A stretch of 64,000 nt of DNA, taken from contig NZ_CP077970.1 of assembly GCF_024758505.1 (NCBI RefSeq), positions 5,580,001-5,644,000 of the forward strand, written 5' to 3'. The notes beneath the pieces were generated by a model that saw only the letters and a list, made by a program, of their open reading frames with translations, had not been told where the DNA came from and made no database searches. This stretch comes from Bradyrhizobium arachidis. Its GTDB lineage: Bacteria > Pseudomonadota > Alphaproteobacteria > Rhizobiales > Xanthobacteraceae. Both the position numbers and the translations under genes were made by a program. Below are positions 27,849-30,573 of the stretch, piece after piece. Positions within the stretch are counted from its first letter, which is position 1, and each line of letters starts with the position of its first letter.

Positions 27849-27964
27849 TTCGTAGGGTGGGTTAGCCGAAGGCGTAACCCACCACTTCTGTGACCGCGGA
27901 ATCAAAAGCGGTGGGTTACGCCGAGCGGACTGCGCTTCGCGCGGCCGCACGGCTAACCCACCCT
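27849..27964. repeat. Palindromic repeat (GTAGGGTGGGTTAGC type) split by IS110
   Basis: Left arm TTCGTAGGGTGGGTTAGCCG (27849-27868). Right arm CGGCTAACCCACCCT stops at 27964, where the IS110 begins. The missing ACGA is found immediately beyond the element (29343-29346). Inner GGCGTAACCCACC and GGTGGGTTACGCC are also inverted. The family recurs intact at 39873-40016. Confidence 0.88.
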
Positions 27965-27982
27965 TGTATTAGCCCGATCGCT

Positions 27983-27988
27983 TATATT
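27983..27988 (+). promoter_or_regulatory. -10 element of a junction promoter in the IS110 leader
   Basis: TATATT lies 18 bp inside the left end. In the circular form, the right-end bases TTG plus the CT core and first T give TTGCTT exactly 17 bp upstream. In the inserted form the same position reads ACCCTT. So a promoter would be assembled only on circle formation, as described for IS110 relatives. Confidence 0.6.
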
Positions 27989-27994
27989 GAGCCG

Positions 27995-28160
27995 TTCCGT
28001 GAGGAATGGCCCAGCCCGGGTGGCCGCCCGAGCTGGGCCGCCGTTCGATCGGATCGGTACCCATCGAAGCCTTGAGGGCTGTCTGACGTAGCGAGATCGC
28101 GACCGGCACTTCATCGGGACCCGAATGGTTGAACGAACTTTAGGTTCGCATAACAAGGGA
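27995..28160 (+). ncRNA. Candidate IS110 bridge RNA
   Basis: Predicted from layout, not from a covariance search. 5' hairpins: TTCC-GTGA-GGAA (27995-28006) and a GGCCCAGC/GCTGGGCC stem-loop (28008-28039). Target loop: ACCCATC (28059-28065) is identical, but for one T/C change that allows a G:U pair, to the 7 bases left of the CT core at the insertion site. CGTAG (28087-28091) is complementary to CTACG across the core. A hairpin AGCC/GGCT separates them. Donor loop: AATGGTTG (28124-28131) equals the last 8 bases of the element's right end. ACAAG (28153-28157) is complementary to CTTGT at the left junction. A CGAAC/GTTCG hairpin (28134-28148) separates them. The end is approximate. Confidence 0.72.
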
Positions 28161-28173
28161 GGGATCGACGAAG

Positions 28174-29142
28174 ATGGTCAAGCATATCACGATCTGTGCC
28201 GGTATCGATACCGGCAAACGGAAGCTTGATGTGGCGATCGAAGGCCGCCGCGAGCCGCTGCAGGTGGAGAACACGTCGGAAGGTCACGAGGCTTTGTCGG
28301 CGTGGCTGCGACAGAATCGCGTCAAACGCATTGGCATCGAGGCGAGCGGCGGTTACGAACAGCCGGTCGTCGCCGAACTGCGGCGCAAGCGGTTTGTGGT
28401 TGTGGTGTTCCAGCCGGCCCAGGTCCGGGCTTATGCCAAATTCCACTTGCAGCGGGCCAAGAACGATAAGATCGATGCCGCTCTTATCGCAGCCTGCACC
28501 GCAGCGGTGCGGAAGATCCATGCCGCTCCCGATCCTCGGTTGCTGCCGTTCGCCGAGCAACTGACCATGATCGATCAGATCGGCGAGGATATCGCGCGCC
28601 TCAAGAACAGGATCGAGAGCTGCCGCAATGTGAGGATTAACCAGCTCTGGCACGAGGATATCGCTCGCCTGGAGCAACGTGAGAAGGCCGCACTCAAGGC
28701 TCTGGTCGCCTCGATCTGCAAGCATCCCGACCTTGCCAGGAGGCTCGCGCTGATCAACAGCGTCGCCGGCATCGGGCTGCCGACCGCCGTTGCCATCCTG
28801 GTGCGTCTGCCTGAGATCGGCCGGATCACGCGGGAGCAAGCTGTCGCTCTCGCCGGCCTTGCGCCCTATGACGACGACAGCGGCGACCAGGTCGGTGTTC
28901 GGCATATCGAGGGCGGACGAAAGCGGCTGCGTCGCGCTCTTTATACCGCTTCACTGGCTGCATCGTTTCGATGGAATCCGCAGCTCATCCAGCTCTACCG
29001 GAGGCTGACCGCAGCCGGAAAGGAACACAAGCGCGCGCTCGTTGCCTGCGCCAGGAAGATGCTCATCTTCGCCAACACGGTGGTAGCTCGCGGCACGCCA
29101 TGGTGCGGCGAACCGCCGGCGGGATCATTCTCTGTTTCTTAG
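28174..29142 (+). CDS. IS110-family transposase (DEDD recombinase)
   Basis: A 322-aa protein. The N-terminal RuvC-like DEDD domain has Asp12 (AGIDTGK), Glu56 (GIEASGGYE), Asp98 and Asp101 (KNDKIDA). The C-terminal transposase_20 domain has VAGIGLPTA (about 197-205) and a serine in APYDDDSGD (Ser236), the place of the nucleophilic Ser. Length is slightly short of many members but domains look complete, so it may be active. A GGGAGGG Shine-Dalgarno overlaps the 3' end of the candidate bridge RNA. Confidence 0.95.
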   Translation: MVKHITICAGIDTGKRKLDVAIEGRREPLQVENTSEGHEALSAWLRQNRVKRIGIEASGGYEQPVVAELRRKRFVVVVFQPAQVRAYAKFHLQRAKNDKIDAALIAACTAAVRKIHAAPDPRLLPFAEQLTMIDQIGEDIARLKNRIESCRNVRINQLWHEDIARLEQREKAALKALVASICKHPDLARRLALINSVAGIGLPTAVAILVRLPEIGRITREQAVALAGLAPYDDDSGDQVGVRHIEGGRKRLRRALYTASLAASFRWNPQLIQLYRRLTAAGKEHKRALVACARKMLIFANTVVARGTPWCGEPPAGSFSVS

Positions 29143-29199
29143 TTCGACCGGGACGCGTTTCTTCGTCCCGACCTACGGCCCCTCACGACGTCGCGCGCA

Positions 29200-29272
29200 G
29201 CGTCCGTCAAGGATGGCCGTCGTTTGCCCCAACTTCACGCGATCTGCCGCCAGGCCACGCCTTGACGGACGC
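29200..29272. repeat. 13-bp inverted repeat in the IS110 right flank
   Basis: GCGTCCGTCAAGG (29200-29212) and CCTTGACGGACGC (29260-29272) are perfect inverted copies in the 200-bp non-coding part after the transposase gene. It could fold an RNA hairpin or act as a terminator-like structure; its role is unknown. No coding sequence was recognised in 29143-29340. Confidence 0.6.
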
Positions 29273-29340
29273 GAGCACGGCGTCATCATGAAGACGCCGA
29301 CGACTAAACGGCGTAAAGCACAGCCGCCATTTAATGGTTG

Positions 29341-30573
29341 CTACGATTTCGAGAGCCACTTCAACACGCCCCTGCCCGCGGCGGCGCCCGTCGCAAACGA
29401 GGCCTGCAGCAAGTAACCGCCGGTCGGCGCCTCCCAGTCCAGCATCTCGCCGGCGGCAAACACACCAGGCAAGCGGCGGATCATGTAATCGGCGTCGAGT
29501 TCGTCAAAGGTCACCCCGCCCGCCGTCGAGATCGCGCGATCGATCGCGGCGACGCCGGTGAGCGGAACCGGAATTGCGTTGATGAGCTGCGCGAGGTCTT
29601 CCGGCGAGAAAGATGCCAGCGGACGGCCGGATGCGATCGCGGCCTCCTGCATCAGGCCGATGCCGACCGGTGACAATTGCGCCGCCTTGCGCAGGAAATT
29701 CGCGAGCGATTGCTTGCCACGCGTCCCCGACAGGCGCGTGGTCAACGCCGAAGCATCGAGGTCCGGCCGTAGTGCTATCGTCAATGTCGCCTGCCCGAGG
29801 CCCAGCACCGCCTCGCGCAACTCCGCCGACAATGCGTAGATTGCGCCGCCTTCAATGCCGCTGCGGGTGATCATCGCTTCGCCCCGCACGGTGTGCGCGC
29901 CGATCGTCAACGACACGCCCTTGAGCGGCTGGCCCTCGAAGCGATCACGAAAGACTTCGGACCATGCAACCGTGAAGCCCGAATTGGCCGGCCGCAGCCT
30001 CGGGATGGCAACGCCCTTTGCGGCGAGGGTCTCGACCCAGCCGCCATCCGAGCCGAGCCGCGGCCAGCTTGCGCCGCCGAGCGCCAGCACCGTGGCACGC
30101 GCCTCGACTACGCGCTCGCCATCCGGCGTCTGGAACAGCAGCCGCCCCTTGCTGTCCCATTCCGTCCAGCGATGGCGGAAAGCGAAGCGGACGCCACTCG
30201 CATCGAGCCGCCGCAGCCAGGCGCGCAGCAACGGCGAAGCCTTGAACGCCTTTGGAAACACGCGGCCACTGGTGCCAACGAAAGTCGGCTCGCCCAGCGC
30301 CTCGCTCCACGCGCGCAACGCATCTGGCGAGAAGGCATCAATGGCGGCCTTGAGCTTCGGCGCGGCTTCGCGATAGCGCGCGAGGAACTGCGGCAGCGGT
30401 TCGCTGTGAGTGAGATTGAGCCCGCCGCGGCCGGCCATCAGGAATTTTCGGCCGGCGGACGGCATGGCGTCATAGACGGTGACGCCGGCGCCGCCTTGCG
30501 CAAGGACGTCTGCCGCCATCAGCCCGGCGGGACCGGCGCCGATGACGGCGATGTGGGGTTTGGGTGCGGTCAT
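29341..30573 (-). CDS. FAD/NAD(P)-dependent oxidoreductase, HI0933/YhiN-type (PP_4765 group)
   Basis: A 410-aa flavoprotein with the N-terminal dinucleotide motif GAGPAGLMAADVLAQ (about 12-26) and AGRGGLNLTHSE, characteristic of the HI0933-like aminoacetone-oxidase/YhiN group, plus a C-terminal FAD motif (VFAAGEMLDWEAPTGGYLLQASFATG). The reaction is not known. The gene ends exactly at the IS110 right junction: its TAG is made from the duplicated CT core plus the next A, so the insertion did not change the protein. Confidence 0.85.
   Translation of the reverse strand: MTAPKPHIAVIGAGPAGLMAADVLAQGGAGVTVYDAMPSAGRKFLMAGRGGLNLTHSEPLPQFLARYREAAPKLKAAIDAFSPDALRAWSEALGEPTFVGTSGRVFPKAFKASPLLRAWLRRLDASGVRFAFRHRWTEWDSKGRLLFQTPDGERVVEARATVLALGGASWPRLGSDGGWVETLAAKGVAIPRLRPANSGFTVAWSEVFRDRFEGQPLKGVSLTIGAHTVRGEAMITRSGIEGGAIYALSAELREAVLGLGQATLTIALRPDLDASALTTRLSGTRGKQSLANFLRKAAQLSPVGIGLMQEAAIASGRPLASFSPEDLAQLINAIPVPLTGVAAIDRAISTAGGVTFDELDADYMIRRLPGVFAAGEMLDWEAPTGGYLLQASFATGAAAGRGVLKWLSKS

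Follow-up and report, generated by a model that had tools for sequence, protein, structure and literature searches.

The window analysed here, a 64,000-nt stretch of a Bradyrhizobium genome, contains an IS110-group insertion sequence (IS) that is 1378 bp long including one CT core. The element sits in a palindromic repeat, and a noncoding leader precedes its recombinase gene. The features, in window coordinates, are as follows.

27852..27962, no strand: left part of a GTAG-tagged REP-like palindrome pair (the target), read from the sequence; left target ACCCACC at 27956-27962
27963..29340, + strand: IS110-group element
27963..27967, + strand: left core CT with the right-donor sequence, together CTTGT
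27983..27988, + strand: predicted -10 box TATATT, completed as a promoter only in the circular form (TTG-CT-T, 17 bp, TATATT)
27994..28007, + strand: 5′ stem-loop 1 of the predicted bridge RNA
28008..28039, + strand: 5′ stem-loop 2
28040..28107, + strand: target-binding loop (stem, left guide, hairpin, right guide)
28059..28065, + strand: left target guide ACCCATC
28087..28091, + strand: right target guide CGTAG, complementary to right target CTACG at 29341-29345
28109..28173, + strand: donor-binding loop
28125..28131, + strand: left donor guide ATGGTTG
28153..28157, + strand: right donor guide ACAAG, the reverse complement of CTTGT at 27963-27967
28174..29142, + strand: IS110 DEDD recombinase, 322 aa, a relative of the IS621 recombinase
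29333..29345, + strand: left donor AATGGTTG, right core CT (29341-29342), and right target ACG, from the sequence and the comparison of copies

The recombinase matched the Pfam families PF01548 (DEDD; 67.4 bits, cutoff 29) and PF02371 (Transposase_20; 57.2 bits, cutoff 21.3) and the NCBIfam model NF033542, "IS110 family RNA-guided transposase" (163.9 bits versus a cutoff of 140). It also aligned with two relatives of solved structure, the recombinases of IS621 (E = 4.7e-28, 101.6 bits) and ISCro4 (PDB 9t56; E = 2.1e-24). Residues D12, E56, D98, D101, and S236 fall at the places of the catalytic residues in this alignment, and we take them to be the catalytic D, E, D, and D and the conserved serine. 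The bridge RNA lies in a long left end upstream of the gene, which places the element in the IS110 group and not in IS1111. Since the likely ribosome-binding site, GGGAGGG (28157-28163), sits inside the donor-loop region of the leader, RNA folding may limit translation of the recombinase. The guide RNA and the mRNA leader may also compete for bases 28157 to 28163.

Ten full copies of the element, including the one in the window, and one fragment were found in this genome, and the full copies lie in differing flanks. They are 99.6 to 100% identical in DNA, all ten carry a gene without stops, and nine of the ten share an identical bridge RNA. The CT dinucleotide forms both joints of the window copy (27963-29340), and the orthologous intergenic site in the relative G005 is uninterrupted and reads CTAACCCACCCTACGA. 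The ends of the element were set from the ten full copies with their differing flanks, from the CT on both sides, and from this empty site; the last two also indicate a clean target without duplication. It had been predicted from the window that other copies would be flanked by ACCCA(C/T)C-CT-ACG, and on the left side this was borne out by the nine other full copies and the fragment: all 11 insertions have the left flank ACCCA(T/C)C-C (5 ACCCACC and 6 ACCCATC). On the right side it held with one exception, CTACG being present in nine of the ten full copies, the window's included, and CTGCT in the other (L008), where four of the five positions still pair (one wobble). The fragment (L011:1501-1675) consists of the left end only and is also inserted at ACCCATC-C. 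In another region (L002:2881-4002; genome positions 5997155-5998276), a pair of identical full copies, oriented the same way and separated by about 1.1 kb, brackets a 313-aa open frame encoded on the other strand, an arrangement that resembles a composite transposon.

The palindromic repeat around the element runs from a GTAG at 27852 to ACCCACC-CTACG, in agreement with the earlier view that the target lies in a REP-like palindrome. GTAG-tagged REPs have been reported in Bradyrhizobium (PMC3733652), and the target repeat is presumably one of these described families. The genome contains 120 free RCCCAYCCTACG sites; subtracting 5 ACCCATC and 28 GCCCACC sites leaves 87 free ACCCACCCTACG sites. 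The repeat type at a given site can differ between species: one orthologous intergenic REP (L163 and L165, near 1670-1820), with similar neighboring sequence, is of the ACCCACC type in G005 and of the GCCCACC type in G002.

All four guide strings of the original prediction are present in the leader (28059-28065, 28087-28091, 28124-28131, and 28153-28157). On the left side, each guide has the sequence of the top strand, and on the right side, each is its complement. The exact guide sequence ACCCATC is the target of 6 of the 11 insertions, and the target of the window copy, ACCCACC, requires one U-G wobble. With a 7-base donor guide (ATGGTTG) and one wobble permitted in the left target guide, none of 20,000 dinucleotide shuffles of the leader contained all four guides; single hits numbered 1635, 3775, 220, and 1111.

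For comparison with relatives, 91 distinct insertions were collected, from the genome itself, further Bradyrhizobium, and a small number of additional lineages (one duplicate of 92 was removed), and two of the guides had to be redrawn. The left donor guide had been read as AATGGTTG (28124-28131), an exact match to 29333-29340. The match of ATGGTTG (28125-28131) to 29334-29340 stands, but the first A (28124) is unsupported. Among the 89 of 91 leaders readable at this base, it was G in 41, C in 27, A in 18, and T in 3, whereas the donor base opposite the guide's first position was A in 76 of 85. Because the base varies freely while the donor base is mostly A, ATGGTTG was taken as the working guide. 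The right target guide, described as complementary to CTACG, is firmly paired through CTAC, but the fifth position was paired in only 74 of the 85 insertions (out of 91) that gave right-guide counts; the two positions next to the CT core were paired in 85/85 and 85/85 (2 wobbles). The CT core itself (positions 1 and 2 of the right guide) was imposed by the search pattern and was excluded from the evidence. CAAG of the right donor guide is invariant in 32 aligned leaders. More generally, the right ends and cores in relatives were located by searching for GTTG-CT and CTTGT patterns, and core and donor matches in relatives are therefore partly imposed. CTTGT in relatives is no separate evidence because it was the search anchor. 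Likewise, the donors in the 85 insertions were nearly constant (ATGGTTG 76, ATAGTTG 4, ACAGTTG 4, and CCAGTTG 1) under search patterns that allowed only such variants. The guides beside the variants were ATTGTTG for ATAGTTG and ACAGTTG for both ACAGTTG and CCAGTTG.

Folding of the leader and comparison of 31 distinct sequences both gave the expected two 5′ hairpins followed by two guide loops. Stem-loop 1 was 98.1% paired, stem-loop 2 showed changes on both sides in 8 of 13 pairs, and the outer stem of the target-binding loop was 100% paired with both-side changes in 3 of 6 pairs; the small hairpin of this loop was weaker (85.1% paired). The donor-binding helix was 96.6% paired. Over the whole RNA, 95.1% of cells were paired and both-side changes occurred in 14 of 49 pairs, a number reached in 0 of 500 shuffles and compared to at most 8 when the partners were slid. 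The covariation score was 0.186 versus 0.099 in shuffles and at most 0.070 with slid partners. Further pair types were no more numerous in the RNA than in shuffles (36 versus 35.1; 177/500).

The extent of the RNA, originally given as 27995-28160 or about 165 nt, has to be revised. When 27993-28173 is folded, the donor-loop stem, CUUC/GAAG, closes, which it does not in the fold of 27995-28160; the RNA should therefore end near 28173, abutting the ATG. This stem ends at the base directly before the ATG and contains the likely ribosome-binding site. With a start near 27995, the predicted bridge RNA should be about 179 nt. The shorter fold had produced a misleading closing helix and was replaced by the longer one. 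Folded to 28173, the leader had an energy z-score of -2.5 relative to shuffles, of which 5 of 200 were as stable.

A search of Rfam at E values up to 1 gave no relevant family and two weak chance hits, and a covariance model was therefore built here, using 25 sequences whose elements have a protein identity of about 80% or less, with the window copy and its close kin left out. This carried out the covariance-model check suggested with the original prediction: the leader scored 185.3 bits (E = 4e-49), and the match, 27990-28173, runs up to the gene start at 28174, consistent with the predicted position before the gene. Four weaker matches occurred in the window, the best of which (27.8 bits) was the second hairpin read on the other strand. 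The whole genome gave 20 matches; 11 were strong (118.6 to 185.3 bits), one for the leader of each of the 10 copies and of the fragment, and the other 9 (27.8 to 31.8 bits) overlap those leaders on the other strand. The model scored leaders of elements about 36 to 38% identical at 32 to 41 bits and found none in L031 to L034, which are 25 to 30% identical.

The predicted promoter appears only when the two ends of the element are joined: the junction reads TTGCTT, 17 bp, TATATT. In the integrated copy, the -35 position is ACCCTT, and a strict-pattern promoter scan of the integrated DNA found none. When TTG was placed before every left end and spacings of 16 to 18 bp were compared, the best -10 was at 17 bp in 37 of 38 distinct leaders. 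It matched at 4 of 6 bases or better in 35 of 38, compared to about 9% of shuffles, and the best TATAAT match over the first 45 bases fell at 17 in 30 of 38. Counting 7 bases from the -10 box places the probable transcript start near 27995.

Across relatives, guide and flank change together, which was a check suggested with the original prediction. Two positions of the left guide were tabulated for the 80 of 91 insertions with this guide type (11 lack it). At position -7, guide and target agreed in 79 of 80 cases (A/A 28, G/G 51, and A/G 1). At position -2, the counts were 21 U/T, 7 U/C, 51 C/C, and 1 C/T, which is as G-U wobble predicts. The same held for the 31 distinct RNA-target combinations (A/A 14, G/G 16, and A/G 1 at -7; U/T 10, U/C 4, C/C 16, and C/T 1 at -2). 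Seventeen loci without CTTGT at the expected distance, L144 to L147 and L159 among them, were left out of these tables; L145 and L159 were read by hand and entered in a set of twelve elements with different guides, which sit in correspondingly different targets. In this set, the left guide matched at 6.33 of 7 positions versus 4.97 when re-paired and the right guide, core left out, at 3.67 of 4 versus 1.97; none of 100,000 permutations was as high on either side. The twelve were chosen by hand, one per guide type, three being the main REP-guide types, and the right-guide registers (including that of L030) were set by hand. Other guides and targets are found in more distant elements: L022, with CCCTCAG and CTGAGGG, L138, with ACCAGAG and CTCTGGT, L136/L137, with ATCAGAG and CTCTGAT/CTCTGGT, and an element of Sinorhizobium meliloti, with GGAGAAG and CTTCTCC. 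There are exceptions: L013 has guide C with target T, the left match of L136 is only 5 of 7, L023/L024 have one mismatch at -6 (3 insertions), and one insertion, L073, is at a poor site that also deviates at -7. Near-identical copies are not independent. On the transposase tree, only three switches of the A/G guide class are needed, two of them on well-supported branches, and the target switched in 2 of 2; the sign test is underpowered (P = 0.5). At E = 1e-60, a protein search across 397 genomes of the order gave hits in 3, this genome included; besides G165, already known by DNA, only G494 was new. In L014:2818-3000, the left guide GCCACCC faces the target GCCCACC, a one-base register shift that may mark an inactivated or retargeted copy.

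The use of sites within this genome followed the order that pairing predicts, though the numbers are small. Of sites followed by CTACG, 5 ACCCATC, 87 ACCCACC, and 28 GCCCACC are free, and 4, 5, and 0, respectively, are occupied; L008 (right flank CTGCT) and L011 (no right end) were omitted. Occupancy was thus 4/9 for sites that pair perfectly with the guide, 5/92 for wobble sites, and 0/28 for mismatch sites, with P values of 0.003 for perfect versus wobble and 0.002 for perfect versus mismatch. Wobble sites by themselves did not differ significantly from GCCCACC sites (P = 0.59), nor did perfect and wobble sites together from mismatch sites (P = 0.20). Of the five free perfect sites, three lie in palindromes whose opposite arm already carries a copy.

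The element is almost certainly an IS110-group IS of the IS621 type, a reading that draws on its anatomy, the guide matches and their covariation with targets, the uninterrupted target sites, and the junction promoter motif, all of which can be read in the DNA. By analogy with IS621, it would be excised as a circle, and the joined ends would complete the promoter from which an RNA of about 179 nt (27995-28173) is transcribed. This bridge RNA should bind the recombinase. At a REP site, its first loop would pair with both strands, with ACCCAYC to one side and CTACG to the other; its second loop would pair with the junction of the element's ends, ATGGTTG-CT-TGT. The recombinase would then exchange strands at the shared CT.

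It is very improbable that the recombinase protein alone reads the REP and that the leader, though structured, serves purely as a regulatory untranslated region. REP targeting is also reported for the IS3, IS4, IS256, and IS5 families (PMC1525189), and the likely ribosome-binding site in the donor-loop stem makes a regulatory role possible as well. However, the targets follow the letters of the RNA loop, both in the A/G choice at -7 and in the wobble-shaped table at -2, and twelve elements with different guides have matching targets. Recognition by protein gives no reason for guide U to occur with both T and C and guide C almost exclusively with C. Slightly less credible still is a match by descent, in which the RNA loop captured neighboring target sequence and pairing is irrelevant. 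Most relatives sit in the same few REP types, and part of the guide-flank agreement is therefore shared history; yet copies with the same RNA occupy targets differing in a base that wobble allows (5 ACCCACC and 6 ACCCATC here, CTCTGAT and CTCTGGT for L136/L137), and occupancy ranks by pairing strength. Of the three alternatives, the one with most weight, though unlikely, is that this is a true bridge-RNA IS that is now inactive in this genome. No insertion has been seen to move, and one further copy is a left-end fragment, but ten full copies are nearly identical with intact genes, and the bridge RNA is unchanged in nine of them.

The preferred reading, a bridge-RNA element of the IS621 type, agrees with the original assignment, which is supported by the recombinase family, loop order, guide arrangement, and covarying guides. 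With IS621 of Escherichia coli, the element shares the recombinase family, the CT core, a left-end RNA before the gene with the target loop preceding the donor loop, the guide arrangement (left guides equal to the top strand, right guides complementary; PMC11208160), the junction promoter (predicted here and likewise gained in the circle by IS621; PMC11208160), a REP target that ends in CTAC, and tolerance of a wobble in the target used in nature (for IS621, rG:dT at position 4; PMC11208160). The predicted RNA of about 179 nt compares with 177 nt in IS621 (PMC11208160, PMC11208158). The element differs in having two 5′ hairpins instead of one and a different left guide, and the proteins are distant. 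A single 5′ stem-loop is the consensus of 103 IS621 orthologues and does not define the family, whose bridge RNA structures are called diverse (PMC11208160). ISCro4, whose structure has been solved, is also an IS110 recombinase, distant in sequence and likened here by protein alone. A further relative is an IS110-type element on pSymB of S. meliloti (L171 and L172), with a recombinase 51% identical (L172) and leaders that the RNA model detected at 117.6 and 115.8 bits. It differs in its guides, GCCGGCAC and GGAGAAG, for the target GCCGGCAC-CT-TCTCC (one copy), and it is possibly ISRm19, which is reported in REPs in 4/4 copies (PMC1525189). The seekRNA elements ISEc21 (IS110) and ISEc11 (IS1111) also have a noncoding RNA matching each target strand, upstream of the gene in the IS110 type, as here, and downstream in the IS1111 type; their targets differ from that of this element (PMC11187229).

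The mechanism has been published since 2024, and the element adds an IS621-type case to a system already known. For IS621, bridge RNAs, junction promoters, targeting of REPs, and tolerance of a wobble have been described (PMC11208160; PMC11208158), natural reprogramming was reported for seekRNAs (PMC11187229), and IS elements in REPs, including IS110 members, were described in 2006 (PMC1525189). One paper counts 2 to 25 IS110 copies in soybean bradyrhizobia and does not use the term "bridge RNA" (PMC10127595). In the open-licence literature, we found no paper on this Bradyrhizobium element, which supplementary tables of the IS110 surveys may list, and nothing on bridge RNA with wobble and REP together. 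The more interesting part is a possible broadening of the guide by wobble and the re-aiming among REP families. It is possible, and proposed here tentatively, that guides are tuned for breadth, with U (or G) at the bases that distinguish REP families, letting a single RNA reach two of them by wobble, and that single-letter changes re-aim the lineage among GTAG-tagged REPs while the donor stays fixed; the rule would extend to IS621, with its own wobble in the natural target.

Bridge-RNA recombinases can be reprogrammed. The element group offers a natural series with one RNA scaffold, different guides, and many scored insertion sites, from which one can read the guide positions that matter, the mismatches that nature tolerates, and the way a guide changes in the course of evolution. 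For a Bradyrhizobium enzyme, it provides an RNA, a target, and a donor, all of them predicted. A second Bradyrhizobium group (L136, L137, L138, L029, and L030), 35 to 38% identical, has bridge RNA-like leaders with other guides. L136 to L138 have CTCTGRT as their right target, which the right guide matches along 7 bases, in L137 with one wobble.
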